A stretch of 64,000 nucleotides of DNA from Warburgia ugandensis (taxonomy: Eukaryota > Streptophyta > Magnoliopsida > Canellales > Canellaceae): assembly GCA_035236585.1 (NCBI GenBank), contig CP141137.1, forward strand, positions 9,750,327 through 9,814,326, written 5' to 3'. Below the pieces are notes generated by a model. That model searched no databases, was not told where the DNA came from, and was given only the letters and a program-made list of their open reading frames with translations. Position numbers and translations under genes: made by a program. Positions 16,901 through 44,940 of the stretch are shown piece by piece (position 1 is the first letter of the stretch; every line of letters begins with the position of its first letter).

Positions 16901-19422
16901 GAGTATATGGAATATAATTTTAATGAGGAGAGGAGTGGGAGTGGGAGTGGGAGTGGAGCACTAGTAAAGATTGATAACCAAGAAATCCCCCTAAAAGAAC
17001 ACTTCTGATACTTGGGATTGATAATTCATGAGAGTAGAGAGATTAAGAGGGAGATTACCCAAAGAATCCAAGCTGGTTGGAACAAATAGAGATGTGCCTC
17101 TGGAGTTTTGTGTGATATGAAGATGCCACTCAAACTAAAAGAAAAATTCTATAGGATGGGTATAATGTTAGACATGCTCTATGGAACCGAGTGTTGGGCA
17201 GTTAAGGAACAACATGTTCATAGGATGAGCATCGCCAAAATGTGGATATTGAGATGGATGAGTATGGATGAGTGGCAAGACTAGAAAGGATAGAATTAGA
17301 AATTAAAACATTAGAGGAAACTTAGGAGTAGTACCAATAGGTAACAAGATGAGGGGGATTTGACTTAGATGGTTTGGGCGTGTCTAATGGAGACAAAAAA
17401 GGGCACCAGTTAGAAGGAGTGAGGTGATCCAAGTCGAAAGTTCTAAAAGGGCAAGAGGAAGGCCCAAAAGAACGTGGATAGAAGTGGCGAGAAGAGAGGA
17501 ATGGAGAAACAAGATTCATGTGACCGACCCCTAATCAGGGTAAGGTCTTGATGATGATGATATGTTATGATAGTATTACTTCAATATGTGTCTTGTAAAT
17601 TACTGCTAGCTATTTTAATTGTTCCATAGATTCTGTGCTAGTCAAAGAAACTCTTCAACTTCACCCTTTCTTAAATTCAAAGCGTAGTATGCATAACCCA
17701 CAAGCATTTAGGAAATTCTAGTTAAGCTGTGCTTTAACACCAGTAATACTACATTCCAGCATCTCTACTTTTGAAAGTTTATATTACTGTCACTTTTTGA
17801 GTTTGTTCATTTCACTTGATCAGATTTCTGGGCTTATCCTGTCCACATTATTAGAATAAAATTCTTGGTTTGTGCAAAAGAAACCTTAGCTTCGTATTAC
17901 TTTACATTATAATATGCTATACAAAAACAAGAATACTCTGTTTTTAGATAGATAAAAGCTGAAGCAAAAAATTTGGAAGACATTGATCTTCTTATTGTGG
18001 TAAAACTACTCTGTTTAGACTGGTTATAATGTTCTTGAGACTGTTATGAGTTACAATGTTCTTTTCAGTTACCAAAAATTTAAATTCTTGCTCATGCATT
18101 TCTAATACCATAAATTTTAAAAATTTTAATACAATTAGAGCAAAAGCCTCATGTCAACATTGGCCACTACTTGTTTGCCATTACTGACATTTGAAAAAAA
18201 AATTGGTCGGGTACATAAGGAAAAGAAATCATTTACAAAACAGCAAGGGAAATCAGGAAACGAGATAATCCTAAAATGTGTGAGAAAAGGCAGGCAATCC
18301 ATGTGAACTTAAGTCCGCCTGCAACCATTGCCAAGGAAGGGAAGTGATCGAATGGAATGGTGTTGCCTCTTTCTGAGTTGAAAGACCTCCCACAAAAAGT
18401 TGAGAAAAGGCAGGCAATCAATGTCGAATCAAGACACCTGAACTCATTCATGGAGGGAGGGAATTGAATGCATGGAATGTCTGGTACATATGGTAAAGAA
18501 ATCAATTATGTAACAGCAAGGGAAATCAGGAAACAAGATAATCTCACAATGTGTGATAAAAGCTAGGCAATCCATGTGAACTTAAGTCCATCTGCAATCA
18601 AGACAGCTGAACTCATTCACGAGTGAGGGAAATGAATGCATCGAATGACTGGTGCATAAGGTAAAGAAATCAATTATGAAACAGCAAGGGAAATCAGGAA
18701 ACAAAATAATCCCAAAATGTGTGAGAAAAGGCAGGCAATCCATGTGACCTTAAGTTAACCCTTCCCATGACATCAAATAAGCAAAAGAAGCCCAAAATGG
18801 AGTTTTGAACTCACTTTGTAAATGTTGATTACATGTCCTGCAGTAGGGAATTGTATCATAATGTGTCGTATGGCACCAACAAAAACATTGGTTTTGTACT
18901 TTGGTCCATCAAACAGCACTATTTGGGGTTTTGTTGATGTCAAAGGAATTCTGAAGACATTCCAAACAGAGCCTGATTTGAACCAGATAATGAATCGCCT
19001 GATATATCTATCAGATGATACATAACATGGATTGCCTGTTCCAAATGAGCCAATTTCTCTATACACACACCCACATAATCATTGGTTTTGTACTTCGATC
19101 CATCAAACAGCACTGTTTGTTTTTCTTGATTGCAAAGGAATTGCCGAGACATTCCGCATAAAACCTGTAGTTGTACCAGATAATGGCCTGATATATCTAT
19201 CAGATGATACATAACATGGATTGCCTGTTCCATATGTAACTATTTCTATACGGTTGCATATTTGTCACCTGGTTAGCCCAAATCTGATACTTCTCTAGAA
19301 CTGATTCCCTAACCAGTTGTGGTTGGCATACATGCACCGTATTTGGAGGCAGATTTGGAAGTGTCACCATATCATCCCGAGGGACTTGAGATCCCTGTTA
19401 AGGATAACTGATGCAAGATAAT

Positions 19423-23137: not shown

Positions 23138-24187
23138 GGTAAACTATCTCCACGCAAGGCGGCCAGGTTGAGGCTGAACATCAGCTGGATAAGAGTAAGT
23201 CAAAATCCTTCACAGCATCGCAGGACTTGTTTAGTCCATATTATATCGAAAAATCTGACATAGTCTTATAAAATGGGATTTCTTAAGCCTTGTCAATTGG
23301 CTCCCGTTATTGTCCAAATATTTTATGTTGGGAGCCTTGTCTTCCCAAGGAAGTCATTAGGAGTAGTACTGCATAAGCTTAGAGACTTAGAACATGGTAT
23401 ATAAAAAGAGAGACGAATTAAAGTGGAGAACAAGCAAAGCAAAATGGAGCAGGAGCGAGGGTGCCACTCAGAAGGAAGGATTCAGGTAAGTACGATGATA
23501 ACTCCATTGTCATCTTCTTCTCTTCCTCCTTTTTGGACCTTTTCATGGGTATTTATTACACCGATTATTTCTGCTAAGTATTCCTGCTCAAGGAGTTCAA
23601 ACAGTCCCATGATTGAAATAGGAACCATTTTTACTAAGTAGCTTAAAATGTTGAGAATTGCTAAACTCACCACCATGAGGTGTAGTCTAGCAACTACATC
23701 TTATGAGGCCCACCTATATGTGATTTGACTCGTCAATCTTATTGCTCTTATAGATAAAAAAGCATGTAGCTTGAATGATTCTACTGCTATAAAACAGTCC
23801 AATTTTTATTAAGTTTTTCAAATGTCCGCTTTAAACACAACATTTAGTATGGTCTTTAGATGCTAGAGGCATCCAAATCACATAACTTTTTTTTATTATC
23901 TATAAGATATCTAAATATAGAGGAACAAGATGAATGCGCCAAATCATTCAAAGTTAGGCCTCGTAGAATGCAGTCGCTAGAATACACCTATAGTGCGGTT
24001 AATATAGCATTTCCTCTAAAATGCCAATCTCATGAGAAGAATGATCCAGTGAAGTGCTTGCAGGCAACCCGCATTTACTTAGTGGAGCCTAGCTGTCATT
24101 CATCTGGCTTGTTCATCTGATTTCAGTTATAGGAATGCTTAAGTTCAATTTCTTCTACTAATAACTCTCCTTTCACATTTTCAACAG

Positions 24188-25288
24188 AAAAAAGGAGTAC
24201 GGTTGATAATATATGGACTCAACTCCCCAAGGAAATAATAGGTCTCATCTTAGAACGCTTGAACCTAGTTGATTATATTCGGTTTGGTGCCGTCTGCGTC
24301 AGGTGGAGATCAATGGTCTCTGAGAAGCTGTATCATCCATCACCTGATCTCAAATGGGTGATGCTGTCTTTCAACCCAAAGAGCAGTATTCGTGAGTTTT
24401 TCAGCCTATCAGAGGGTAGAGAATACAAGCTAAACTTACCAGAGGCTCGCAATGATCGCTGTTGTGGTTCTTCACATGGTTGGATGATAATGACTCAAAC
24501 AGAAAGGAAATTTCCTCCTGAATCCATTTTCAAAAGCCCAAATTCAACTTCCCTACTTCTTCACAAGACGGGCTAAGCCGAACCGTGAATTAAACTATAT
24601 TGGGAAAGCTATCCTATCTGCTGCCCCTACACTGGAGAACATCAGTGCAGGCCACTGTGTAGTTGTGGCAATGTATGATGGTTTCCATTTAGCCTTCTGT
24701 AAACCAGGAGATAAAACATGGAGACCCCTTGAAAAGTCCCATGATTCTTTCTACGATATCATATTTTACCGGGGGCTGTTGTATGCCTTGAATGGAAGCA
24801 GACAAGTGACGGTTTGGGAATTAGGCGCCGCTCCTAAAGTTGATAGCATCCCTCTGCCCACTGAAGCCGAATTCTTTTGTTATGGTTTGGCCCATCTAGT
24901 TGAATCTTGTGGGGACTTACTGATGGTTATTAGATTGCCCAATCGAAGTTATTACGATAAGACGGAGGGATTTAGACTACTCAAGCAAGATCCCAGTTCT
25001 AACAAATGGGTTGTGATGGAGAGCTTGGGTGATCAAATGCTGCTGTTGGGTCTCACCTGTTTCGGTTCTCATGCGGCTACTATCTCGATATCTCTGAAGG
25101 CTACTACCGATATGTCGGCACTGGGATTCAAAAAGAATTGCATATACTACGGCTTCGGAAATAATGTATGTGGGACTGGTGATGGTTCGTGCACATTTCA
25201 GTTGGAGGATGGCAGGATAGGGAAACTTCCGAGTATCTATTCCTCGTATAAGTTTACACCCATCTGGGTTACACCAAATCCATGGTAG
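24188..25288 (+). pseudogene. F-box protein with DUF295 domain, frameshifted
   Basis: The first part encodes an F-box (WTQLPKEIIGLILERLNL...CVRWRS), the module that binds SKP1 in SCF ubiquitin ligases. The second part (24520-25288) encodes a DUF295 beta-propeller-like domain with blocks such as DKTWRPLEKS, GLLYAL, LVESCGDLLMVIRL and SLGDQMLLLG, ending PIWVTPNPW. The two parts are in different frames. Dropping one C from the TTTCCTCCTG run (24511-24520) would restore the family-like LLNPFSKAQIQLP, so the break is a 1-bp insertion. The coding block starts after an AG acceptor at 24187 and lacks its own ATG. A possible first exon (23444-23485, ATG to a GTAAGT donor) lies upstream, but its phase does not fit. 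Either a recent pseudogene or an assembly error is possible. Confidence 0.8.
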
Positions 25289-27879: not shown

Positions 27880-29273
27880 CTTCTTGTTATTTGATCCACC
27901 GTGTCTGGCACATTGTAAGGCTTTGTGAGAACATGTAAAGCCAATGGTCAGGCTTTACAAGTGTAGACACTTCAATGACAGTCACCTTCTTTTTCTGGAT
28001 AAGTGCTGAGTTATATGATCAGAGCTTTCCATTTATACATCCTTAAAATGCACTTTTGAACACAAGGGCCTTGAGGTTTCTTGTAACTTCAATGTTACTC
28101 AGCTTCATTAGCAGGAGAATTGGTTTAATCATTTTTCATTGTGTAACTGTCATGTTTGGTAATTTTAGGCAAATCAGTGACCCAAGAAGTGGTTTTGCTA
28201 CTGTTGAGAAAGATCATCTTGGAAGCTTGATTCCCATTCTTAGGATAGGAAAGTCTGTTTCAATTCTCTCTACCTGTTTGTTTGTTTTTTTCCATCTGTG
28301 TGGGCACCAAGTATAGCAAGTGCACATGTATATGCATATTTGCTTGCTTTCTGAATGTTGCAGCTGTATATATCTGTCCTTTTCTGGATGCAGTAACTTG
28401 GTGGATCTCCGCAAGGAAAATAGCACTAGATGATGTGCACTTGTCCTGAGCCATTACTTCAACTGGTATCACCAGGAAAACTTGATATTTTTCACCTTTA
28501 TTAGCCAACTCCTAACTTCTCGAATGGAGACATGAATAAACGTGTGATTTTGGGCTTGATATATGATGTAGATATATGCATGCATGAAAATGTTGTACTA
28601 GTGACAATGATTATCTTGTAGATTTCCTTCATTTTGAAATTGTAGTTAGTTAATGGATTCTTCAGATTCTGCCCTATTGCACAACCAAGAGATTCTGTGC
28701 TTGAATCCACTTGCGAGAAAAAGAAAAAGGAAAAAAAGATCTTTTGGCTGACCCACTGCTGTATTACACTAGCACCCGTTGCTTCTATGGACATGTCTTC
28801 GTCTGTAACGGCATATCTTCTTAAGCGCTTCAACAAACTGCTGAAAGGATCAAGAGCTTTCATGTCAAAAGAAATTTTACCAAAATTCACTTTGTATTTT
28901 CTTTTTCCATTTTAAACTAGATGAATGATAGTATTACGTATGACACTATAGCAAGTAGCTGTAGTAAGCCTCACTTTTGCACGATGAAACCCACCTTGGT
29001 TGATACAGACCTGTGTATCTGATTTCTCTGGCCTTGGATATCTTGCATCCCTAACATCAAAGTGAATAGGTGATTGGGTGATTTTAACTTCTGAAAAGTG
29101 TGCTTCTTACTCGTTGATGGTGGACTTTTCTTTTAAAAATTGTTTCTGACCGTCCATGCACTGTGACCAAAAGTACATGGTCTCGGATTCCAGGCTGATA
29201 TACTTCCCACTGGTTTTGGAACAGTAGTCATCCAAAGTGGGACAAATCAGATGGATTGGCCTCATCAACAAAG
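27880..29273. other. No recognised gene
   Basis: A minus-strand ORF at 28501-28890 has a fairly protein-like N-terminal part (ALDPFSSLLKRLRRYAVTDE) that runs into low complexity. No family is recognised. The 8-bp hAT target duplicate lies at the right edge. Confidence 0.3.
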
Positions 29274-29281
29274 GTGGGTCT
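29274..29281. repeat. Left 8-bp target-site duplication of the hAT element
   Basis: GTGGGTCT here is repeated exactly at 42730-42737. Eight bases is the diagnostic target duplication length of the hAT superfamily. Confidence 0.93.
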
Positions 29282-29500
29282 TAGGGGTGGCAATTCGGGT
29301 TGGCAGGTCGTGTTTGTGGCGACACGAACACGACACGAACAGTGTTACAGGTCGACACGAACACGACACGCTTAATAGTCATGTCAAAAACCTATGACTC
29401 GTACACGACCCGGTTCTTAAAAAAATGACATGACACGACCTGTGTAACATGATTAATTGATTGAGTCGTGTTGGATACACGACACGAAATGACACGACAT
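29282..29500. repeat. Left terminal inverted repeat and subterminal region of the hAT element
   Basis: The terminal TAGGGGTGGCAA pairs with the right end (one mismatch in 12). GACACGAACACGACACG-type motifs repeat in the following 200 bp and recur, inverted, at 42540-42715. Confidence 0.85.
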
Positions 29501-29621
29501 GACACAACATATTAAAAAAACTGCCCTCTCAAGTCAAGTCCCAACTGCCAAGTGAATAGAATTTATAGAACGGCTGCCAAGGCCCAAACGGGCCAAATCC
29601 CAAAACAACCACAATAAAATA

Positions 29622-29875
29622 AACTAACATATAGGACGGTTATTTCACAACCGTTCTATAAAACCCTAACATATAGGACGGTTGTAACATAACCGTCCTA
29701 TATATCATTGGTTTTATAGGACAACTGTGAAATAACTGTCCTATATATTACGGATTTTATAGAACGGTTGTGAAATAACCATCCTATATGTTATTTTATA
29801 GTACGGTTATTTCATAACCGTCCTATATGTTAGGTTTTATAGAACGGTTGTGAAATAACCATCCTATAGTTTACT
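29622..29875. repeat. Palindrome array 1 (6 units), downstream of the hAT transposase gene
   Basis: Six units of the form ATAGGACGGTT, a loop of about 6-9 bases, then AACCGTYCTATA, spaced about 40 bp. Here the loops read as variants of 'gtgaaat' and the linkers contain 'gttttata'. Confidence 0.92.
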
Positions 29876-30479
29876 TTTTATAATTTTATTCCACTCCACC
29901 GTTATGACTGATCTTCTGATTCTGACTGAACTGTATCTTTGAATCTTTGATCACCTGAAGCAATGACAATGAGGTTCTGGAGCAAAAAATCAGAATTGAA
30001 TAACATGGGTCTTTCAGTTATGACATGGGTCTTTCAGTTATGAAGAACTAGACTTTCAACCCAAGTTACCAACCCCCACATAAATTGTTAGGAGGGAATT
30101 CATTTCTCCAACTCCTTTCATGCTCATTGTCACTGGTCATTGCTATATCCATTGAATTACTGGTGACTGATCCACCACACCACATGACAAGTACATAGAC
30201 AACCAAATTACCAATAATGTTCCTGTAATATTTTGTTATTTTATTTAGAAGCAACACAGTTCTTTATAGTTTAGTATTACACCACTCAGTCACTCACTGA
30301 CTCACTTCACAAGTTCACAATTCACATGATATGTGAAAAAAGAGAGACTGAAATGAATCAAATAACCACAATAGTAGTAAATAAATATGGATTAAGTAGC
30401 ACATGATGGAAATATACTTCCATCAATGTATTATGTATCAAACGCAACAAATTAAAATAAGTCATGAAAATTATACAAA

Positions 30480-33125
30480 TTAATCAAAATGAATTGATCC
30501 AGAGTCTTCAGTTGGTTGAAGTGATCCTGCAGTGCTACTTATGCTTACAATGTCCTCAGTAAGCTCATCCATGGCAACTGTAATGGTAGAGTCTACAATC
30601 ATATAGAATAAACAAGCATTAGTTATTACTAAGCTCATATAAAATATAATGTAAATATAGAATTATAAACTATTACCTTTCAATCCATATAGCCAATCTC
30701 TCACACAAATCAATGCTTGCACGGTTTCTGGCTTTAAAGTAGATCTATATTGGTCAAGAACCCGACCACCAACACTAAAAGCAGACTCCGATGCAACTGT
30801 AGATATAGGAATGCTCAAGACATCACGAGCCATGGCAGCAAGTTCAGGATACCTAAAATCAACATTTGAATCAAATATAAATGTAAATAAGATTACAGAA
30901 AATAGTGTTTACATGAGATTATTAGTCAAACAACCTGTATTGATTGCCTTTCCAGAATGCAAGAATGTCTAGCTTTGACTCTTGCAATCTTGATTCATCT
31001 AAATAAAGCTCCAATTGTGATTTTTGCATAGCCAAAGTACCTCCTTCACCTTCAAATGATTCAAATTCCTAATGCAAATGCAATTATATTATTCAACGTA
31101 CTATAAGACAATTCATACTTCATAGCAAATTTTAATATGCTAAGTAGTAAGCGACATATAATGAAAGATACAATTATAAATAAAATCACCTTCATGACAT
31201 CTAAAACCTCTTGACTATATGACATGTTCTGTCTATCATCAGCACCTGCACCTCTAGCCACAGGTGTAGATGAGGAGGAAGGAATAGGATAAATCTTAAC
31301 CTTATATTCATTGAAGAGAGAGAATAACTTTTCCCTAACTTGAGCAAACTCCAAGCAGCCACTGCCAAACAATTTCTTGTACAAGAATTCCATAAAGGAG
31401 AGCTTATACCGAGGATCCAACACACATGCAATTGCCAAAATGGTGCTGAATTTAGACTAGTACTTTGAAAACTTGGCAAACATTTGGGTGGACATATGCT
31501 TCATATAGTCATCATCACTTCTCATGTATTGTGTTAAACTCAAATAAATTACAAATGTTGCACGAAAGTAGAGATTTGCAGTGGGATACTTGGATCCAGA
31601 GAACATGCAGGTGGCATCATAAAAAACTGCCAAAAACTTCAAAATTTTTGTAGCCTTTTCCCATTCAATGAAATAAGGACAATGCTTATAATTTGAGTCA
31701 CTTAGTTCTAAGTGACAAAATGCACGTTGGTAACAAAGAGCACTTTCAAGCATCAAATACGTTGAATTCCATCTTGTAGGACAATCTTGTCTTAAGCCCT
31801 TTTTTGTCTCAATTGACATGTGATTCACACACTCTAAAAAATTTTGTTTTCTACTTTGTGATGCTTTGACATACTTGATACTCTCTCTAATTTTTTGAAT
31901 AGCATCATCAATTTCTTTCAAACCATCTTGCACAATCAAATTCAAAACATGACAACAACAACGTAGATGAAGGAACTCTCCACCACAAACAAGAGTGTTC
32001 CTGATGTTTAATTGATGCCTTAATAGCTCAACAGAAGAATCATTAGAAGAAGCATTGTCTAAAGTGATTGAAAAAATCTTTTTCTCAATCCCCCATTTTA
32101 CCAATAATGAGTATAACTTTTCTGCTAATGATATTCCATTATGTGGAGGTGGTAGGAAACAAAAATTTAATATCCTCTTTTGTAAGACCCACTGACTATC
32201 TAGAAAATGTGCTGTGAGACTTATATAACCATCAGTAATACAAGAAGTCCACAAATCCGATGTCAAACTTATCCTGCTAGGTGCCAATTCTAACATCTCT
32301 TTTATCTTTCCTTTTTCTCTTTTATACATTCTCAGAACATCTGCTTTTACTGTTTTTCTACTAATCAAGTGCAAATCTGTACGCAAATATTTCAGTAGAG
32401 TTCTAATTCCATCATACTCAACAAATTGGAAAGGCAAATCATGCATAACAACTGCAGCTGCTACTAACTCACGATAAACTTCAGGATCAAACTTATTATC
32501 TGAAGTTGCACTTAATGACACTGACATACTCCCCTGACTTTGAGATAAAAGCAACTGGCCTATATAACGAGAAGAGCTCCGTTGACAAGTCTTTATATGA
32601 CGTTTTAAGTTACCAGTACCAAATTTGCTATCGCAAATGTATATTGCAGAGCACTTCTTGCATTTACACCTTTGCCTTCCATCTTCTGATAGAGGAAGGT
32701 GTTCAAAAAAATTCCAAACTGGAGACATTAGTTTCCTATGCTTTTTACCTCTATTGGATTTTGAAACTAACTCCACATTCTCCAAATCAGCAAACTCATC
32801 ATCATCATTGTTGTGGTGTAGCATATTCAAGTTATCAGAAACATCAGTGCTCCCAACTTCAACTTGTGCCTATATTGCAAAATGCAAATGACAAAAAAAA
32901 ATTAGTTCACACTGACAGTAAACTAAACACTTCAGACTTCACCAACAATTACTAATAAGTAATAAGGGAAGGGAGTGAGTGAGACACTGAGACTTGAGAG
33001 TTGAGACTCGAGAGTGAGGAAATTGAGAGGAATGAAAAGAGTCAGACTCATAATTTCATAGAGAAATAATAAAAAACAAACACATGACATACCTGTGGTG
33101 CTGTAGTAGGGGTGCTGCTGCTCAT
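30480..33125 (-). pseudogene. hAT (Ac-like) transposase with one in-frame stop
   Basis: Five exons read on the minus strand: 33125-33093, 32869-31190, 31068-30935, 30852-30677 and 30592-30480. They give a 712-codon frame with all splice phases consistent. Domains in order are a BED zinc finger (CKCKKC...GNLKRHIKTC, residues ~59-106), the RNase H-like core with candidate catalytic Asp216 (SLTSDLWTS) and Asp282 (ITLDNASSND), the hAT signatures CCCHVLNLIVQDGL and DCPTRWNSTY, and the C-terminal dimerisation domain with candidate Glu638 (VASESAFS). One TAG (31457-31459, codon 482) stands where the family has Trp after KY. Everything after it stays in frame (LAIACVLDPRYK). It acts by cut-and-paste transposition. 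Arrays 1 and 2 bracket the gene. Confidence 0.93.
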
Positions 33126-33308
33126 CGTGTTAGAACTTAGAAGGGTTGAAGTTTGAACTTGAAGAAGAAATCTGGATTCTGGTCCTCTGGAGTCTGGAAA
33201 GGGAAATCTAAAACAGATGTAAAATTGTAAATTATAAAAGCAGCTGCAAACCTGCAAGCCTTCAACTTCAACCTTGGGTTGGTAACGTTGGTTATGTTAC
33301 TTATGTAT

Positions 33309-33612
33309 CCTATATTTATAAAATATAGTACGGTTATGTATTAACCGTCCTATATTTTAAAAATATAGAACGGTTATGTGCTAACCGTCTTATATTTAGA
33401 TAATATAGAACGGTTACTTACTAACCGTCTTATTTTTTGTAAGCTTTAACATATAGGATGGTTATACATTAACCGTTCTATATTTTCCAAATATAGAACG
33501 GTTATACACTAACCGTCCTATTTTTACATAATAATATAGGACGGTTATGGACTAACCGTCCTATTTTACATAATAATATAGGACGGTTACGGACTAACCG
33601 TCCTATTTTACA
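33309..33612. repeat. Palindrome array 2 (7 units), upstream of the hAT transposase gene
   Basis: Seven units alternate TATAGAACGGTTAT or TATAGGACGGTTAT with CTAACCGTCCTAT. The array starts about 185 bp upstream of the transposase ATG, in its presumed promoter. The last two units are nearly identical. Confidence 0.93.
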
Positions 33613-35429
33613 CATGGTTTATTCCTTCATTACCAATCTGTGAGTGTGACTGTGAAGTCTGTGATGTGCCAAATTTTCGCTTTTCAAGTGACCCGGTCGA
33701 CAAAGACTGATAGCCTTCTTTCCTCCAATTCCAAACTGGCAAGTGGCAAGTGGAGTTAATGAAAGTTGAAACTTACACTTCAATCATTTGTCAAATATTT
33801 TGATTTTTGAGTTATTGTCCTTAATGTTACTTAACTTACTTGTTAGATAACTTAGATAGTTAGATGTCATGAATCATGATAGATGATCCGAGGTGGGGGC
33901 GGAGGCCCCCCCTTGTAGACTTGTAGTGGCGGGAAAACAAAATGAAAGTTGAAAACTGAAAAGAACATAAAGGTTTAACTTTAACTAATTAATAATTATC
34001 TAGGTATACTAACTACTAAGTCAATCTAGAGTCTAATCTAACTGTCTAAGGCAATTGTTTTGTCTTTTTGTATAATTGTATTGTATCATGTAAGTTAAGT
34101 AAGCCCAAATCCAATTATCCAATCGAATTTGAAGTCTTATCCCTAAACCTAAAGAGCCCTACCTAGCCTGGTACTGGTTCAGATTGTTTGCTATAACTAT
34201 AAGCCTATAACTATAAGTTATATATAACTGTATAACCTAATTTCTTATCAACCATTTTCAGTTTAGCTACACATTGTCACATGTCAATTGTTACAACTTA
34301 CAAGTTACACTTAGTAAATAAGTTAACCAAGTTTTGTAAGTTGTACAAGTAAAAGTGAAGTGAGAGAGAGACTAACTAGCTGTCATATATTGTTGTATAA
34401 AATTATAAATGCTAATGAATAATGATTTTCTTATGTTAATTTCACATGTCTCACCAACCAATTGATCTAATATATCTCTTTTCAATCAAATTCATGAATA
34501 TCATGTATCCAACTCATATAACTCAATATTTGTTTCTCATTTCTAACTCCCAATTGATGATAATAGATTAGGAATAACTCATTCATGATTCATCCACGAT
34601 CCTTTGATCCATCATTCATGTAGACATTATAGAGTAAAATTTAGTAACTCCTTTAGTAATATCATTCAACATTTGTGTTAATTCAACACACAACTCCTAT
34701 TCTCTGTTCACATTCTCACCTCACCTAATGAGTTAATTACAATGTTACATAACTAAATAACTAATAACTATTCCCTTGGGACCTTTCCTAGTTCCTATAC
34801 TATACTCATTATCCTCTAATGAGATAATTACACAACTCTTTCTATACTCATTCTCAAGCTACTGAGTTAATTACATAATTGTTTCTATTCTAGTTCAGTT
34901 CAGTCATTCTTACCTAATGAGTTAATTACATGACTCTTTCTCTTTCTTTACTTATTATCATTTATCAATGTTATCATCAACATTCAACAACTTTTGAATT
35001 GAGTATGAGTTACTTACATAACTTTTCTTTTTTAAGATGATCCTCAAGTGAGATCATCAGATGAGTTAAATACATTATATACATAATTAACATCAACTTT
35101 ACTCATCCTCCCCTGACCTCAACCTCAACAACTATGTTGAATTGAATATGATAGTATGAGTTACTTACATAACTTTGCTTTTAAGCTGATAGATACTCAA
35201 GTAACTCAACTCAACTGAGAAGTCTGAGCCTGAGATAGTGAGATGAACATAATACATATATGCCTATATGCTCTGTCTTTTTAAGCTCATCCAGTCATCC
35301 TTAACTTAAGGAAATTAAGATGAGTTAATTACATAACTCTTTCTCCACTCTATACTTAATAACTAGTTTTATTTAAGCACATCATCAACTAAGATTAATT
35401 AAATACATAGCTCTTATAGCTTATACAAC
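33613..35429. other. Spacer between the two divergent hAT-element genes
   Basis: AT-rich and noncoding. From about 34,730 to 35,420 the phrase GAGTTAATTACATAACTC, usually followed by TTTCT, recurs about eight times with drift, which suggests an old tandem repeat. Confidence 0.6.
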
Positions 35430-35439
35430 TCCTATATTT

Positions 35440-35858
35440 TAATATATAGATGGTTATAAACAAACCATCCTATATTTAAATATATTATAGGACGGTTATT
35501 TTAAAACCGTCCTATATTTAAATATATTATAGAACGGTTATTTTGAAACCGTCCTATATTTAATATATTATAGAATGGTTATTTGAAAACCGTCCTATAT
35601 TTGATTATGTTATAGAACGGTTATTTGAAAACCGTCCTATATTTAAGTATATTATAGAACGGTTATTTGAAAACCGTCCTATATTTAAATATATTATAGA
35701 ACGGTTATTTGAAAACCGTCCTATATTTAAGTATAATTATAGAACGGTTATTGAAAAACCGTCTTATATTTAAGTATATTATAGAACGGTTATTGAATAA
35801 CCGTCCTATATTAGTATATTATATAGAACGGTTATTTTAAAACCGTCCTATATGGTTC
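35440..35858. repeat. Palindrome array 3 (10 units), upstream of the Transposase_24/Ulp1 gene
   Basis: This is the most regular array: about ten units with a 41-43 bp period, TATAGAACGGTTATTTGAA then AACCGTCCTATATT. It lies about 1.35 kb upstream of the likely ATG and just before a possible noncoding first exon (ending at 36021 with donor GTATGT). Confidence 0.94.
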
Positions 35859-37203
35859 TATACATATAATATATTGTTTTCACTTTTCACTTTTCACCTT
35901 GGTCATTCTCAGCCCTAATTTCAATCTTCCAAGTTCCAACCCAACGATCCAATCCAACCTATACTGAAAAGGTGAAAACGACCATTCCTCTTCGATCTTT
36001 CACAGATCTAAGCAAAGAAAGGTATGTATTTACGATTTTTTGCATCTTTAATGTAATTTCGCATACAGTTCTGTTATACATGTAGTAAAAAGTAATAAAA
36101 GAACACAATCGATAAATAAATAAAAAAACCTCTGTCTGGTTTCTCTGATCCTTGCCTTGAACTTGTTCTGTCATTTCGTTGTCAAACACCTATTTCTCAT
36201 ATTTTGATTTATGTTGTCTTTCATTTGAGTCTGGAAACGGGGTTTGTTGGGAAAAAGATGGATGAGCAAAAAAAAACGGAGCTGGAAGCCTGGAAGTGGA
36301 ATGGGATTATGGGAGATATCAGATATGTATGTTCCTCTGACGGAAAAACCAAACATATAAATTATAAAGGTTCTGAGTCTTCTGACTTTGCCCATAGTGC
36401 ATTAGTGCTGAATCAGTAAATCCTGATAGATAGGTTCTCAGAGAATTGCATCTACTGAAATAGTCTCCAGCTGAAATGTAGAGCAGACTGAGCAGTAGAA
36501 GAAGTAGGACAGATGTCAGAAGATTGAGGGAGAGAGACATTAAACTAGTTCTTTCTTTTACAAAATGGAAAAAAACATTACCTTTATCTGATTTATCACA
36601 AACTAGCTACAGCTTATATCCCAATTTCTTCTTTTCCTTAAGGGAGCCCTAGAAAAAAGAACCAAATCAAGAAAAATCTCTCAAAAACTAAAATTAACAT
36701 ATCTCATATCTGCATCAAACAATGTCAGATTTTCAACATTTTTGATGTGTTGGAACTGTTGAAACAAGAGGAATGATTAAGTGATAGTTGACCAAAATAA
36801 AAAATAAAGGATGAAGGAACATAACAGATTTTTTAAATTATTATTAGACTAGAATGAATGTTTTGAGATAGAAAACTTAATGAAATGGCCAAATCAAGCT
36901 ACAAATAATGAATGTTATACAAAAACAAAATATCACATTTTTTTTTCCACCCTGCATACTGGAATGACATACTTCTGGGGCTATGGCACTATGCCAACAT
37001 CACAAAAAATGGGAACATGCATAATTGCTTGTTTGAAGAGATAGAGGGAGCAACAATCTGACCTTGTAGGAGGCTTCCAGTATAGTCTCCACTGTCCAAT
37101 GAAAAATTTGTGATGGTTTTCAAGGGTGCTACTGCTTATTATTCCTGTATATTGTATTCCTCTTTTCTTGTCTAACTGTAGTCATTTTTATTTTGAAGCA
37201 AAC

Positions 37204-40200
37204 ATGGAGCAAGTAGAAGAGGTAGGAGAGGTACAAGTAGAACAATTACAAGACACAGAAGCAGAACAATCAAGGCTATCAAGCACATGTCCATCAGTAA
37301 CACCACCGGTGGTCAGTGTTAAGAGAAAGGTCAGGGGGAGGGGCCCAACGCAAATGGAACATATAAATAAGAGAACCTCAGTTGGAATAAAAGAAACGGT
37401 ACAATTCAACACTAAAGGCCAACCGATTGGTGGTGCTGCACATGCCTATGCTAGCTTCATATGTTGCACTGTTAGAAGACTTGTGCCAGTATCAGTGACT
37501 GATTGAAGACATGTATCGCCACAAGTCAAAGATTCAGTATGGGAAATGGTCAAGGTATGTAAATTCTTCCTACATATAACATAATATGTCCTTTATATTT
37601 ATATGTTTTGTTTTTGTTTGCATATGAATCACGATAAGATACACAAAGTTGTTGCAATACTCACTAGTTAGTCACTTTAACATGCTTCTTCTTTTGTTTT
37701 GTAGTCTGCCTTTGACGTATCTGATGAGTGCAAGAAGCAAGCCTTGCTAGGAGCTAGTGAAGCTTGGAGGAAATGGAAGAGTGAGCTTGCAAGGAAGTAC
37801 ATACTTCTAAATTCTCATGATCCTTCTACGCTTCACATGGTCCCTCAGTTGTATTCCTGCTTCATTAACCAGGAAGCATGGAATCAATTTGTACAGTATA
37901 GGCTATCTCCTGATTTTGAGGTAATCACAACTTGAACTAGCCAAGCTAAATTTTGAGTCTTGTAATTATTATAATTGATTGTATTTTGAATCTTTGATCA
38001 CATTACTTTGATGTCCAGGCAAAGCGTATAAAAGGACAAAAGGCTCATGCACAGAACCATACGCCGCACCACCTTTCAAAGGTTGGCTATGCACGATTAG
38101 AGGCAGATGTAGTAAGTATATCATGTCACATTCCATTTGTCTAATCATAGTAGATTTTTTTTTATTAACTCTGACTTAGTGTTTCTTATAATCTTATTAC
38201 AAAGAAAAGAAGGCTGGGACAACGGATCCCATCGACCGTGCTATTCTATGGAAAATGGCACATTCGAAAGGGCGTAACTCCCAGACCTTTGCCAACGAGA
38301 TAACTGCAACAATTGCTTCAAGAATTGTAAGTGGTTTAAGACTTTAAGTTTTATACTTTTACTTTATTTGCATACTGCCTAGTTAAATACTTTTATACTT
38401 TTATACCCTTGCATAGTATATTATTTAAATATTACATATATAATAGTGATTTTATCATGTTATGATCTTTATGTGTGCAGGAAGAGTTGACCCAAGAACA
38501 AGAAGAAAGTGCAACTACAGGGATTCTTAGCAGCACTGCTGCAAAGGGGGACATCCTGTATAGGGCAATGGGCAACAAGAATGAACACCCTGGCCGGGTA
38601 AGGGGCCAAGGTCGGGGTGTTGTTCCTTCCAAATTCTTCCCCAAACAAAAGGCTCCTACGCTACAAGAATTGGAAGAATGGAAGAAGCAAACAGTTGTGG
38701 AGATATATAACATGGTCAAAGATCAACTATTGAAGGAACTCCAAGGTGGCCGAAGAACCTCATGTGAGGATGTTAGCGGCCCTCAAGCTGAAGCTCAACC
38801 TCAAGTTCAACCAGTAAGAAATAATAATAGCTGCACTCCTACTCCTAGTCCTCTATCAGATGAAGAGGTGGCAGAACAAGTACTCCCAATCAGTGAGGTA
38901 TGTATATTCGCTTGTTTAGTTTTACAATGTTACTTATTTACTTTTGTTTTTAGTTTACACTTTACATTACATCACTAATTATTATATATATGTCATTTCT
39001 CAAATGCAGGTGGGTTAGTGTATGTTGCAGCTACATACATTTGAGAACCATGTGGCTGTGGCAACACTGTACGAGGTTTGGCCCATGACTTCCACCACCT
39101 TGCATGGTAAGTTGATGCCTCCACACACTAAGCGTGTGTGCATCACTACTGCCATTCAACCAGATGCTCCCCTTCCATTTCCAGTCGAAGGGGATGATGT
39201 TGAAACTGTTGGGGATGCAATTGGATATCATGTGTGTTGGCCAGAGAAACACATAAAACCAATGATATCCAATTCCAAGGTACATATATACTAACTGTAG
39301 TCATGGCTTCATTTTCTCCTACCTTATTTTAAGTCCTCCTAAACTGTTCATTGATTAATATTGTCTGCAACATGTCGGACAGTCGGATCACCAAAAGTAG
39401 CACAAGGGGCAATTGAAGCAAACCTTGCCGCCGGCAAATTCTGGCATAGTGGCAAGTGTAGCCACATCCCAGCCTTCTCAGGTAGTACTAGTTCTATGTT
39501 TTTCCATAGTCACTACTCACAAGTCATAAGTCAGTAGTACTAGTTCTTTAGTTCAAAACACTTGTTAGGTGCTCACTAGTCACTACTCACAAGTCACAAG
39601 TCAGTAGTCACAATGTTATTATTGTTATATTATAAAATATTTTAATTTTACCTCACTGGGTTTCTTCTTTTATATCTGCTAGTATATCAGTATATGTTGT
39701 ATATATTCATTACTAATTTCTAAAATGTTACATGATTAAATTTACAATGTAGGGATCAAGTGGAGGTTCCACCTAACACACCTCCATTCCTAAGGGTACT
39801 GTACAGACTGGCCAATGAAGGCAACACAAATACAATGAACCCTGTAAGGATAGAGGCAGGTGTGCTTTCAAACGATGTGGTTGAGGTTCCACTCTTCAAG
39901 GAAGACCTCATAGCCATATGTAATATGGATCAATTGGAGTACATGCACATCATAGTCTATATAGGGTACGTCGTGTAACTGCTCTATTAGAGTTAAGACT
40001 TACCAATCAATGTAACATTACTTAATACTTGCTTTTTTAATAAAACTTAATAATTATTTGACATTAACCCAAATTTCAAATGTAGGTATTTGCATGATAG
40101 CTTGCATAGACTAGAGGTCAAGGACATTTACAAGTTCCTTGACCCTTCTCTTGTCTTTCAATTGGACCATTTGCCTAAGGACAAACAAAGTGAAGATATC

Positions 40201-41064
40201 ATTCCTAGTCTCATGACTTGTGCGAAGGGGCAAGCATTACTGATTCCCTACAATAGCGGGTACGTTGTAACATAGGTTGCTTAATTATGCCATTTTAATT
40301 TCACAATTTATAGTTTCATACACATGAATACTACATCAGTTAAGATTAGAGAAAATTCAATTGAACTATTATTTTTATAGGTCCCATTGGATGTTGCTAG
40401 CTTTGGATGTGCATGGTGGCCATGCAATTTTTTTTTATTCATGTGGAGCACACATTCGGGAACACCTTATGGAAATTATAAACAAGTAAGTCTTTATTAT
40501 TCTTTTTATTATAATATAACTACTCACCTGGCAACTATAATAATATTCATAATCTAATGCTTTTCAATTATATGTGTATAGAGCATGGTATAAATGGGCT
40601 GAGAAGGAAGGCATTCACCACCCTCCAAAACTCAACCGAAAGAAGGCCAAGGTACAATTTACTAATTATTGCTCTTTAGACTCTTTCATATAATTTTAAA
40701 CCTGAACTTGTTGGAAATTATATTTTGAAACTTTTATGTTGTCTTTGGTGGCATTGTTTTGCAGTGCCCTAAACAAAAATCAGATTGGGAGTGTGGATAT
40801 TATGTTCTTAGATACATGAGAACCCTCATTCGCAATGGAGTTTCAGTCTCACAATTGAGAAAGGTAACACTTAGACTTACTGACCAAAGTTGCACTTTTG
40901 ATTTGTATATTTCTTGACTTAATTCAAGATTACATGTCTAATCTCTGAACTAAGTTATTATATGTTTCTTGTAGGTGGATTTTGGAACCAAGAGTTACTC
41001 CCAGTTGGATCTAGATGATATTAGAATGGAATGGACAGATCATATTATGAATTTTAATTTGTAG
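37204..41064 (+). pseudogene. Transposase_24 (TNPA-like) protein fused to a Ulp1-type C48 protease domain
   Basis: Readable exons are 37204-37554, 37705-37920, 38019-38111, 38210-38326, 38481-38897, 39019-39279, about 39401-39481, about 39754-39965, 40086-40259, 40381-40485, 40582-40651, 40765-40863 and 40975-41064 (stop TAG). The N-terminal half resembles the Transposase_24/TNPA-like proteins of CACTA elements (WRKWKSELARKYI, KVGYARLEADV, TDPIDRAILWKMAHSK). The C-terminal exons form a Ulp1-like cysteine protease: SHWMLLALD (His), then KQKSDWECGYYVL (Gln and Cys). By my alignment the catalytic Asp position is Tyr (FFYSCG), so activity is doubtful. A TGA (37504-37506) replaces the expected Trp in the VTDW-R-V block. 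The frame between 39280 and 39754 does not join cleanly. CACTA genes of this kind normally accompany TNPD, which is absent here. Confidence 0.85.
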
Positions 41065-42155
41065 TTCAGTGATGTAAAATTGTAAATGAATGTATATTAT
41101 CATTCATGTATATACATTTTACTCAAATATAATACAAAGATCAGTTCATTTCAATGAATGTGTTCTATTTTTCTTTTGATTGAAGTACACTGTATCAATG
41201 TATCTTTGTTTCAAACTTTCAAATTTCAATGATGTGATTGTGAAGTTGGTGTTTTGATCAGCAGATGGGTTAATCATCAATTTTCAATGATGGCTTAGAT
41301 CAGCAAATGGGTTGTATTGTATCATGTATGCACATACAATCTACAAATACAGTATGGGTGGTTGATATCATATCATGTATTGTATCATGTATTGGAGAGG
41401 GAGTCATATATGGAATGGAGGTTGATGATTGAAATTACTGATATATACTGAAGTTGTAGATATGATTCATATGAATATGATATCAAAAAACTTTCAAATT
41501 TCAATGATGTGATTCTGAAGTTGGTGTTTTGAATGGAGACCTGATGGACATCCCTGCCTATACAGGCAATTTCATTCATTTGTTGAGGAATGAGGATAAA
41601 ATTAAAAATGCCAAAGTTCAGAATGATTGTCTGCATTGGTGCCTGCCTGGGCCTATTGACAATTGGAATGATATAGTCATGGAGATGGTGCTAAGTGATT
41701 GATATGTTGGGCAATTGTGATGATTGGAGCCCATGATTCTAAGCTACCAAGTTTCTGACAATCGGAACACAATTGTTTGTGTGAACAGAAAGAGGGATGA
41801 GGAAGTTCCACTAGTTGTATTTATATCATGTTTGCAAGCTTTCACTTATCTGTTGCCAATCAAATGTGTTTTATCAGAAGCTTGCAAACTGGAAGGTGAA
41901 GTTGCTTCGGCTTACATTTTAGGAAATCCTGCTTCATTCAGATCTTGAATCACAGATTTCTGGATTATATTTTGTGAATTCCTGTTTATAGTTTGTCACT
42001 CTCATGTCTTTGCTTTCTTTTCATATTCTCTAAGATGCACCCGAACAAGAACCTAGAAGAAGCTGTTCCTCTGAGAATATCTTTATAGTATATGTGTGAG
42101 AATAACTCATTAACTCTTAACAGTGGCTCCAGAAGAACCCTCCATTCTCCAATAT
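41065..42155. other. 3' flank of the Transposase_24/Ulp1 gene inside the hAT element
   Basis: AT-rich. Short direct repeats such as 'gaagttggtgttttga' (near 41243 and 41517) and 'caaatttcaatgatgtgatt' occur twice. No further gene is supported; the ORF at 41724-41948 has no recognised domain. Confidence 0.45.
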
Positions 42156-42159
42156 AACT

Positions 42160-42315
42160 TAGTAATATAGGACAGTTAGTGAATAGCCGTCCTATATAAA
42201 TAGTAATATAGGACGGTTTGTGAATAGCCGTCCTATATAACTAGTAATATAGGACGATTTGTGAATAGCCGTCCTATATATAACTAGTAATATAGTACGG
42301 TTTGTTAATAGCCGT

Positions 42316-42352
<37 letters not shown>

Positions 42353-42487
42353 CTAGTAATATAGGACGGTTTGTTAATAGCCGTCCTATATATAAGTTAT
42401 AACTATTAATATAGGACGGTTTGTAAGTAACCGTCCTATATAATATCAATACTAATATAGGACAGTTACTCATGAACCGTCCTATAT
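42160..42487. repeat. Palindrome array 4 (7 units), downstream of the Transposase_24/Ulp1 gene
   Basis: Seven units, TATAGGACGGTTTGTGAATAG then CCGTCCTATATA, with AACTAGTAA linkers. An (AT)n expansion (about 42318-42350) separates units 4 and 5. Loops differ from those in the other arrays, so each array has amplified on its own. Confidence 0.93.
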
Positions 42488-42539
42488 TTTCAAATCGTGT
42501 CACGTGTCACTGTTAAAGTGTTAAGGTAATAAGGTCATG

Positions 42540-42729
42540 AGTGGGTCGCGTGTCAAACAGGTAAATACGACGGGTCAAATTTATTGACTCGAACACGACA
42601 CGATTTTTGGCGTGTCATTTTCGGGTCACCGGAAAATGACACGAACACGATAAGACTCGACCCGAACCCGCTAAATTCGTGTCGGGTTCGAGTCGTGTTA
42701 TCGTGTCGTGTCATATTTTGCCGCCCCTA
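42540..42729. repeat. Right terminal inverted repeat and subterminal region of the hAT element
   Basis: CGTGTCGTGTCAT-type motifs repeat and the end reads TTGCCGCCCCTA, the inverse of the left end with one mismatch in the first 12 bases. Confidence 0.85.
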
Positions 42730-42737
42730 GTGGGTCT
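42730..42737. repeat. Right 8-bp target-site duplication of the hAT element
   Basis: GTGGGTCT matches 29274-29281 exactly. Confidence 0.93.
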
Positions 42738-42972
42738 CATCATGCAAAAGTAAGGCGCACTACAGAAACTTCATGTAGTGTGGCTCACCTTTTTTCACAA
42801 TTCCTTCTTTAGTCAAAGGCCATGTGTCCAACCGCTCCTTAGAAGGAGAGTGTAAATATTAGAGAGGGTCTTCGTTTTCCCTTCCACCTTGCCTTCTCTC
42901 CATGGTCAACTATTGGGCCAGCGTCCTGAAGGGTTCTTCTTTCTCCCTTCTCACTTCTTACATCTCAAATCT

Positions 42973-43144
42973 CATCATCATCATCAAGAACTTATCTCAA
43001 TTTGGGTCAATCATGTGAATCTTGTTCCTCCATTCCCCTCTATTAATTGTCATGGCTTCATTTAGTTCCAAAGTTATTAAATCTTTTTTTGCCACTTAGT
43101 TCCAAAGTTATTAAATCTTTTCTCACCACTTTTATCCATGTTTT
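42973..43144 (-). mobile_element. RTE-type LINE 3'-end fragment
   Basis: On the plus strand it reads CATCATCATCATCAAG, then the same 3' end as the LINE at 52775-55870 (TCTTGTTCCTCCATTCC, ATGGCTTCATTTAGT). A 28-bp block ('cttagttccaaagttattaa' plus 'atctttt') is doubled. Only the last 170 bp of the LINE are present. Confidence 0.8.
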
Positions 43145-43553
43145 ACAAAAGAAAAAACTGACTGTTGCCTTGCTGGTGAGCAACTTTCTGCACATTGCTC
43201 TTACGTCTCTCCCATTTTTTCACACATTGCTTCAGTTATGCATTACCTATTCTTTATCATCATCTACTTTGAATATCCAAGTTGGATCTGTATCCTACCC
43301 AATTAGATAGCACGTCAGCTGCTGATGCTAAGCCATAGCATCAAAATGTTATCTTTGTTAAGAGCAATACTTCATTGAGTAATTTCTGGTGGATGCTTTA
43401 GATGTCTAGTGCTGCTGCTGCCAAGTGTAAGCCTAAGTTGATAAGAAACCAGCCGATGTTCTTTGGATAGTAATGACTGTATCTACTGGTATGCTTCCAA
43501 CGTCTATATCACGAGTTTTTATTTCAGTGCCTTTATATGTAGAAGTGCTAGGG

Positions 43554-43734
43554 AAGGGGAGCCTTTGCACAACAGTAAAGTTGTTGTCGTGTGACCTTGA
43601 GGTGATGGGTTCAAGGCATGGAAGTAGCCTCTTGTAAAAATACAAGATAAGACTGTGCACTATATAGACCCTTGTGGTCCACCCCTTCCCCGGACCCAGC
43701 ATATGCGGGAGCTTTGTGCACCGGCCTGCCCTTT
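43554..43734 (+). mobile_element. Au-type SINE, copy 12, with imperfect 20-bp target duplication
   Basis: This is a full-length copy, AAGGGGAGCCTTTGCACAAC to GGCCTGCCCTTT. The 20-bp flanking repeats at 43534-43553 and 43735-43754 differ at two positions. Confidence 0.9.
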
Positions 43735-43754
43735 TATCTGTAGAAATGCTAGGG

Positions 43755-44940
43755 TTGAGATAAGACGAGTAAAAAGAGAATGCTTTACCCTGATGTTCTG
43801 CCATTCAGACTGCTCATCTTCGGGTCGATATCCTAGATGGGTAATGCACTAAACACTATCTCCATCTGACGATCCTAAATACTAATATTCTGGAGCAAAA
43901 ATTGGAGATAGGAAACTGTTGGCTGACCCTGAAGATTAAGTTCATCCACTGGAGAAGATCCTTTGGATATTGCTATTTGATTGTGCCTAGAATATGAGTG
44001 GTTCAGATCATCAGTTGTCTGGGCCACAGATGAAATTGTAGCTGCACTTGTACTTCATGCGGAGACACTGTATATTTCTTCTCTTATTGTATGTTATTGT
44101 TATTGCTGCTAGGTTCCTTTGCATAATATGACCCTCAAATTGCTGAACCATTAGAGGCTCTATCAGTTTTTCCATTCACCATGCTCTTAGACCAGTAGGA
44201 AGATTCTAACTCTTTAAGTTTCTGGTTGGTCTTTCATTTCTCCTCTTGAAAGCTATCTCTAGACTGTCTTTCAGTTTGAGCATTTCTGGGGAATCAAGCA
44301 TAAGGCTGAGCCAACCACCATGGGACCTCCTAAGAAACCAAAGACTTGAGTTTTCTGTAAGGGACAATTTGCTACCACACGAGTATGTATGTGCACCAAG
44401 ATGACATACCGGCAAATGATACGAATTCGAGTCTGCCTTTTGCGTGCCAGTTTCCAAGTATCTAGGCTGAAACAACTCAATGGAGTATAGGCATGATATG
44501 ATAAACAGTTGAGAAGCAATTCCTCCCTTTATCTTCTCTGTGAAGTCCGTCCCATTGCTGCACTTACAAGTAGAATGGGAAGCCGAAAGGAAGCTCCAAA
44601 TCTTTGTTTTTTATAAGTCGGCATCCATGTAAGCAACTCTAACTTTTCTGAGTTCTTACCATGAAATGGTTAGCAAGCAATGATCTTACATTTGACTTGT
44701 CCAAATTGGCATCTTTAATCAATTTGAGATGTGGAAATCTAAGGAGGTCTACTATGAAACAGAAGGTGAATATATATATGTGTGTGTGCTCGCGTGTCGC
44801 GCATGTATGTATGTATGGATGTTATTAACATAATAAATACTGTAAGATGAGGTGTTTCCTCATTTGGTTCTGCAGCTTGCCTGGCCTTCTGGAGCTTTTC
44901 TATGGTTATCGTGCAGGTTATTTTGTTCTTGGATCTTAGT
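43755..44940. other. No recognised gene
   Basis: Unassigned sequence with a short GTGTGTGTGC/ATGTATGTATG run near 44775-44815. The ORFs here lack recognisable domains. Confidence 0.35.

Follow-up and report, generated by a model that had tools for sequence, protein, structure and literature searches.

hAT elements are textbook single-gene transposons. Ac generates an 8-bp duplication and encodes, in its one gene, a transposase with a BED finger, an RNase-H fold and a hAT dimerisation domain. A second protein beside the transposase is found in MuDR, CACTA and PIF elements. Here we describe a hAT element of 13,448 bp at positions 29282..42729 of a 64,000-nucleotide stretch of the Warburgia ugandensis genome (assembly GCA_035236585.1, contig CP141137.1, positions 9,750,327 to 9,814,326 of the forward strand), which is called the window in the following. 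The element carries an Ac-like hAT transposase gene on the minus strand and, diverging from it, a second gene, ORF2, with matches to Transposase_24 and Ulp1. We consider it quite probable that it belongs to a multi-copy hAT family of plants in which an Ac-type transposase is accompanied by this divergent gene, which is likely an accessory factor.

Ac has a length of 4.6 kb and AAACGG subterminal repeats that are bound by its transposase (PMC3260210). The window element shares with the Ac/Ds system of maize the 8-bp duplication, the transposase domains, the short terminal repeats and subterminal repeats of the ACGG type, but it measures 13.4 kb against 4.6 kb, has two divergent genes against one and carries long palindromic arrays that also lie upstream of both genes. 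The complete hAT families of grapevine have 2-5.5 kb, one of them being variable (PMC2528002, Table 2). Captured sequence is present in hAT elements such as Hatvine-6 and Pack-hAT (PMC2528002; PMC8903248), where the capture is often specific to a copy or confined to few, whereas a full-length multi-exon ORF2 belongs to all copies checked here.

Ulp1 domains are described for the grapevine CACTA families Cactavine-2, -3, -4, -5 and -13, and Tnp2 + ULP1 proteins for rice (PMC2528002). Like the CACTA-ULP elements, the window family has an Ulp1 domain on a plant cut-and-paste transposon, but its ends are those of a hAT element, no Tnp2 was found and ORF2 is a separate divergent gene. In the ULP-containing Mutator-like elements (MULEs; KAONASHI and others), the Ulp1 gene adjoins the transposase gene and is sometimes reversed (PMC2528002). 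These elements likewise place Ulp1 beside a transposase, which is of the Mutator type, in contrast to the hAT transposase, the 8-bp duplication and the Transposase_24 part of ORF2. A C48 (Ulp1-type) accessory gene is also known from some Cryptons (CryptonF/CryptonS), including elements of oomycetes, and MarCry-1_FO, an element described together with the Cryptons, has ends and a transposase of the Mariner type (PMC3212892). All of these are tyrosine-recombinase or Mariner elements outside plants and not hAT. No hAT element with an Ulp1 or a Transposase_24 gene was found in searches of the open-licence literature, Repbase being outside their scope. The left terminal sequence TAGGGGTGGCAA is printed in at least three papers of this literature.

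Two divergent genes within one hAT element

The element is bordered by an 8-bp target site duplication, GTGGGTCT, that is exact on either side, and by short terminal inverted repeats, TAGGGG(T/C)GGCAA, that are identical at 11 of 12 positions. Both features are those of the Ac group of hAT elements. When the terminal 12-mer TAGGGGYGGCAA was searched in the 64 kb with at most one mismatch, two places were found, which are the two element ends pointing inward. From shuffled sequences 0.23 matches were expected, and two or more occurred in 2 of 100 shuffles. The initial annotation had delimited a single element by an exact duplication and paired ends, and the same coordinates were recovered here. 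The features of the element, in the order of their positions, are as follows.

29274..29281, no strand: left target site duplication GTGGGTCT
29282..29293, plus strand: left terminal inverted repeat TAGGGGTGGCAA, a left end shared by 8 other large copies
29294..29625, no strand: left subterminal zone, GACACGA-rich, with 12 ACACGA/TCGTGT cores in 344 bp (29282-29625)
29632..29866, no strand: array 1, 6 palindromic units, at the left end
30480..33125, minus strand: hAT transposase gene with 5 exons (33125-33093, 32869-31190, 31068-30935, 30852-30677, 30592-30480), exon ends predicted from sequence
33326..33605, no strand: array 2, 7 units, directly upstream of the transposase gene
33612..35440, no strand: spacer between the two genes, containing GAGTTAATTACATAACTC-type repeats and retained over about 1 kb in 9 smaller derivatives
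35488..35850, no strand: array 3, 9 units, directly upstream of ORF2
36022..37198, plus strand: probable intron (GT..AG) in the 5' untranslated region of ORF2, predicted from sequence
37204..41064, plus strand: ORF2 with 12 coding exons, exon ends read from GT/AG sites and homology; exons 1-6 at 37204-37554, 37705-37920, 38019-38111, 38210-38326, 38481-38897 and 39010 or 39031-39279; exons 7-12 at 39753/39754-39965, 40086-40259, 40381-40485, 40582-40651, 40765-40863 and 40975-41064
37867..38621, plus strand: Transposase_24 (PF03004) in ORF2, residues 172-308 of the spliced model, E 3e-13, span with introns placed by hand
39931..40854, plus strand: Ulp1 peptidase (PF02902) in ORF2, residues 546-703 of the spliced model, span with introns placed by hand
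41589..41687, plus strand: C-terminal end of a PC-Esterase (PMR5/TBL-type), E 9e-13, residues 28-60 of the open reading frame (ORF) 41508-41702
42168..42484, no strand: array 4, 7 units, near the right end
42500..42717, no strand: right subterminal zone, GACACGA/TCGTGTC-rich, with 8 cores in 230 bp (42500-42729)
42718..42729, minus strand: right terminal inverted repeat TAGGGGCGGCAA
42730..42737, no strand: right target site duplication GTGGGTCT

The minus-strand gene had been annotated as an Ac-like hAT transposase, and its product matched the Pfam families zf-BED, hAT-like_RNase-H and Dimer_Tnp_hAT (E 7e-24). It has the BED finger, the RNase-H fold with DDE residues and the C-terminal dimerisation domain of the Ac group. 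D282 and E638 were invariant and D216 differed in one of 12 plant relatives; we take D216, D282 and E638 to be the catalytic Asp, Asp and Glu. Among 7976 candidates, 2304 relatives were found at E <= 0.001, with relatives in many plants, the best being that of Carya illinoinensis with 58% identity. Transposase-based scans of viral and genome contig collections without plants gave no relatives, as expected. In the window copy the gene is interrupted by one premature in-frame stop at 31457-31459. Since a transposase gene is present, the element does not belong to the Pack-TYPE transposons, which are non-autonomous and have no transposase gene of their own, though the window copy bears a stop. 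With a hAT transposase and an 8-bp duplication it is also distinct from the ULP-containing MULEs, which have a MuDR-type transposase and a duplication of about 9 bp.

The gene on the plus strand had been proposed to encode a Transposase_24/Ulp1 protein that diverges from the transposase, and both domains were matched on spliced ORF2. The Peptidase_C48/Ulp1 match had an E-value of 1.1e-8, and its assignment was backed by SENP5 among the PDB sequences (E 3.8e-5). The Transposase_24 match was reached only after splicing and stayed under the cut-off on the unspliced ORFs. Transposase_24 is a Pfam family named after the plant Ptta/En/Spm elements and is not a DDE catalytic domain. The exon 6/7 junction of the model is out of phase, and an exon or a site may be missed there. 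A premature stop was found in the window copy at 37504-37506, and a second one is possible at 39016-39018, depending on the acceptor. An active Ulp1/C48 enzyme has a His-Asp-Cys triad and an oxyanion Gln; in the window copy His, Gln and Cys are present, and the position of the Asp is occupied by Tyr. A protein search with ORF2 gave, among 7994 scored candidates, a single weak relative in Gastrolobium bilobum, with 26% identity across 39% of the query length, and residues 550-735 had no relative among 186 candidates. The wider family of ORF2 is thus poorly sampled in the sequences searched.

The PC-Esterase piece downstream of ORF2 is interpreted as a fragment captured from a host gene. It lies next to a 45-bp repeat (41213-41257 and 41488-41532, 98% identical), which may mark the capture.

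A 27-bp palindromic unit of the type TAGRACGGTTA..TAACCGTCCTA was found 29 times in the window, in four arrays of 6, 7, 9 and 7 units that all lie within the element. Ten shuffles of the window contained 1, 1, 0, 0, 0, 0, 0, 0, 0 and 0 units. The ACACGA cores reach about 35 per kb at both ends. None occurs in the 1.8-kb spacer, and their density is 0.1-0.3 per kb in the genes and in the flanks of 10 kb. In the part of the spacer at 34720-35440, seven GAGTTAATTACATAACTC-type repeats with at most 4 mismatches form a second imperfect palindrome family. A comparison with Rfam at gathering scores gave no matches.

Copies, derivatives and surroundings of the element

Other copies were searched in the window's own genome, which comprises 1.12 Gb in 14 contigs (the window corresponds to G000:C12:9750327-9814326). 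The terminal 12-mer occurred 1242 times in forward and 1255 times in reverse orientation, compared with 26 and 23 times for a reversed control pattern. Facing end pairs were chosen by eye among about 100 listed places within the initial 21.5 Mb of contig C1, and their spacings clustered near 4.2, 13.2 and 16.5 kb. The sample comprised seven pairs in the range of 12.9-14.1 kb, six in that of 4.0-4.3 kb, one of the four near 16.5 kb and three of the six in that of 4.5-5.9 kb; smaller pairs (1.6-3.6 kb) and larger ones lay outside it. Both genes were present in the same divergent layout in all eight large elements of the sample, which have these ends and measure 12.9-16.8 kb. The target duplication was exact over 8 bp in seven of them and had one mismatch in the eighth. 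A length of 12.9-16.8 kb and two genes depart from the few kb and the single gene that are usual, though not defining, for hAT elements.

The genome was also searched with single exons. ORF2 exon 5 gave at least 150 matches with at least 83% identity (all 150 scored, out of 3820 first-look candidates), and transposase exon 2 gave matches at 90 of 90 scored loci, out of 2031 first-look candidates. A listed ORF2 match lay within 20 kb in the divergent layout at 37 of the 90 transposase loci and in no other layout, the chance expectation being 0.12. When 24 of the remaining 53 loci were inspected, ORF2 was present in each. It lay at the expected place in all of the first twelve and in eight of the second twelve, and in the last four it was seen further along in longer stretches. 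ORF2, whole or in part, was therefore found at all 61 transposase loci checked of the 90 scored, and no transposase-only copy was among them. Taken together, these results confirm that two genes in one element and one family are a real architecture that is repeated in the window's genome. A search for further copies that have the two genes within these ends had been suggested as a check of the initial annotation, according to which an accessory gene borrowed from another superfamily would be a new architecture; the layout recurs, and no such hAT element was found in the open-licence literature searched.

In the nine two-gene copies, the window included, the distance matrices of the transposase and of ORF2 were correlated (Mantel r 0.83, reached in 1 of 9999 permutations). 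The four arrays were at matching places in seven of the nine (window, c, f, h, m, n and o). In the 500-bp flanks of 14 elements no palindromic unit was found. Of 44 in-frame stops in the transposase and ORF2 genes of the nine copies, 31 were C-to-T or G-to-A changes, as expected for the decay of methylated DNA. As the window copy has stops in both genes, it would need proteins from other copies for a further move.

Nine elements of 4.0-5.9 kb were deletion derivatives that had lost the transposase and most or all of ORF2 and had kept the ends and the intergenic core. The six of 4.0-4.3 kb retained both ends, the arrays and most of the spacer, had no match to either protein and were each flanked by an exact target duplication. 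In the three of 4.5-5.9 kb, the ends were kept together with the last part of ORF2 and some 1 kb of the spacer; the duplication was exact in two of them and not in the third (p). A spacer core of about 1 kb was common to all nine (L023-L028, L031-L033). It may have a cis-acting role or reflect only shared ancestry.

Outside the element, copies of a repeat of about 80-190 bp are scattered over the window in both orientations, about 73-89% identical and by its appearance like a short interspersed element, at 1516, 4026, 13446, 14756, 20443, 21798, 23020, 27677, 43550, 45342, 46008, 48001, 57680 and other positions. The segments 16160-17497 and 52883-53999 are inverted repeat copies with 78-80% identity that resemble, by eye, a long interspersed element; no Pfam match was obtained in the ORFs scanned of this repeat. 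At 24133-25285 there is an F-box gene with a KIB1-4 beta-propeller that extends over two overlapping ORFs in different frames.

A possible two-component lineage

Every step beyond two genes, one element and one family we infer from the sequences. The transposase would cut and paste the element by the usual hAT route. The ACGG-bearing palindromic arrays may serve as binding sites in the way of the AAACGG hexamers of Ac, and through them the recognition of the ends and the expression of both genes would respond to the same protein or proteins. The Transposase_24 part of ORF2 could bind DNA or the transposase, whose SUMO, or that of chromatin, may have been removed by the Ulp1 part; this part may also do no more than dock on either of them. 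ORF2 would then regulate or assist the transposase, for which the arrays at both ends and both promoters would be the natural place of action, and the protease role may be reduced or decaying in the window's lineage, with the Asp replaced in most copies. We tentatively regard as a serious possibility a two-component hAT lineage in which the Transposase_24/Ulp1 protein is a standard part that acts through the arrays, with its frame kept and its protease site being lost in one sub-lineage.

The reading frame of ORF2 was followed between the 7 copies of the window-type lineage and x, C13 and C7, which represent the longer-spacer lineage, with y left out. Fixed insertions and deletions between the lineages had a length that is a multiple of three in 7 of 7 coding cases, compared with 4 of 21 in the introns (Fisher p 0.0003). 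In contrast, of the private coding deletions of the seven window-type copies, 0 of 13 were multiples of three (p 1.3e-5 against the fixed 7/7). Since the fixed coding changes all come in threes and the private deletions do not, ORF2 was probably kept as a protein-coding gene while the window-type and the longer-spacer lineages were active. For the transposase, the seven window-type copies were compared with x and C12, again without y. The ratio of fixed nonsynonymous to synonymous changes (N/S) was 0.27 in frame (12 N, 12 S) as opposed to 1.66 and 1.17 in the shifted frames, and the transposase is constrained at the amino-acid level.

Several observations speak against ORF2 as an accessory factor. 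When the frame of the window copy is applied, each of the nine two-gene copies has its transposase gene, its ORF2 or both interrupted by a stop. The fixed N/S ratio of ORF2, for the seven window-type copies against x, C13 and C7, was 0.87 in frame, compared with 0.61 and 1.59 in the shifted frames, which indicates no clear purifying selection, and its pooled pairwise ratio of nonsynonymous to synonymous rates (dN/dS) was 0.58, compared with 0.59 and 0.80. This pooled measure also fails to separate the frames of the transposase (0.60 versus 0.54 and 0.57). The active-site Asp of the Ulp1 domain is replaced by Tyr in seven of the nine two-gene copies, the window and six others, so protease activity was not required for the spread of those copies; the Asp is retained in copies c and x and at the loci C13 and C7, the latter two belonging to the longer-spacer lineage. 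With regard to the arrays, copy y is without a recognisable array 3 (three clusters) and copy x has a different pattern (five clusters).

Other explanations of the two-gene layout

The main rival is that ORF2 is passenger cargo, a complete Transposase_24/Ulp1 gene that was captured once by a hAT element and has been amplified unused. The presence of the PC-Esterase fragment in the same element shows that this hAT family does pick up gene pieces. The region around the fragment was found in six of the eight other large copies; it was absent in y and gave no match over 150 bp in x. Transduplicated sequences are also reported for the Hatvine-6 hAT elements of grapevine (PMC2528002), and the lack of a clear amino-acid constraint on ORF2 and the replacement of the protease Asp in seven of nine copies would fit unused cargo. 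However, the fixed coding changes of ORF2 in threes, unlike the private deletions, argue against it. A useless cargo of 6 kb should often be lost, yet ORF2 was kept at each of the 61 loci checked, and it has a palindromic array directly upstream, just as the transposase gene has. We consider passenger cargo unlikely, although it has to be taken seriously.

Alternatively, two neighbouring hAT elements of the same family, of which one had the transposase and the other ORF2, may have fused by loss of the ends between them into a single mobile (macro)transposon. The symmetrical order of end, array, gene, array, spacer, array, gene, array and end is what such a fusion would leave. However, neither the terminal sequence nor a GACACGA zone was detected in the spacer, and two fused elements with surviving inner ends were rejected. 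Among the copies examined, no separate single-gene families with these ends were found. The joined form was present in all eight other large copies and at all loci checked, so a fusion could only be an old origin and not the present state. We regard it as improbable.

A right half that forms an element of its own, nested in the hAT element, had been named among the findings that would overturn the initial annotation; a CACTA element would be an example. Transposase_24 has been annotated in CACTA contexts, with a weak match in maize En-1 (PMC2613891) and a CACTA-like Ptta/En/Spm label in Arabidopsis (PMC5821449). In a loose scan, run without a control, 92 possible pairs of inverted ends with short duplications were obtained, and many of the 60 listed lay inside the arrays. 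When inverted ends flanked by an 8/9-bp duplication were sought around the right half in a strict scan, there was one match (34489-41282) and none in the direct-repeat control, at a chance level of about one or two matches as estimated by hand. The ends of this pair agree at 10 of 12 positions, are AT-rich and unlike those of known families, and the duplication has one mismatch. Over the outer flanks the strict scan recovered the element and, in addition, a further weak pair at 29241-44701. CACTA ends with a short (2-5-bp) duplication that enclose the right half were not found, and the only CACTA-like pair lay inside the arrays, without a duplication. Outside ORF2, the region 33.6-42.1 kb has a sole ORF of at least 100 amino acids, 41385-41690 on the minus strand. 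Tnp2 (PF02992) had no match in the ORFs scanned, this ORF not being among them. None of the 150 listed ORF2 matches lay within 15 kb of a listed Tnp2 match (best 150 of 5074 Tnp2 candidates scored). The loose and strict end scans thus gave nothing convincing for a nested CACTA, MULE or hAT element around ORF2. Moreover, many independent copies have this right half inside the same outer ends, by which nesting is refuted at the window locus. ORF2 may still have been borrowed from another superfamily, as the name of the Pfam family suggests; no donor was found.

An assembly artefact that joins unrelated pieces, a caution of the initial annotation for which no evidence was found, is refuted by the eight other large copies, which lie elsewhere in the genome between target duplications of their own (one of them mismatched), and by the absence of any N in the eight copies counted, the window included.

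If the two-component lineage is true, dependence on a dedicated second gene would be known for a hAT family for the first time. With a second gene of conserved frame and shared arrays that look like binding sites, the family allows regulation or accessory function in hAT transposition to be tested. The at least 150 ORF2 exon-5 matches and the two kinds of derivatives could serve as material for tests of the requirements in cis and in trans. With this family, hAT elements join the plant superfamilies that carry an Ulp1-type gene, which bears on the question why unrelated transposons repeatedly acquire SUMO-protease domains.

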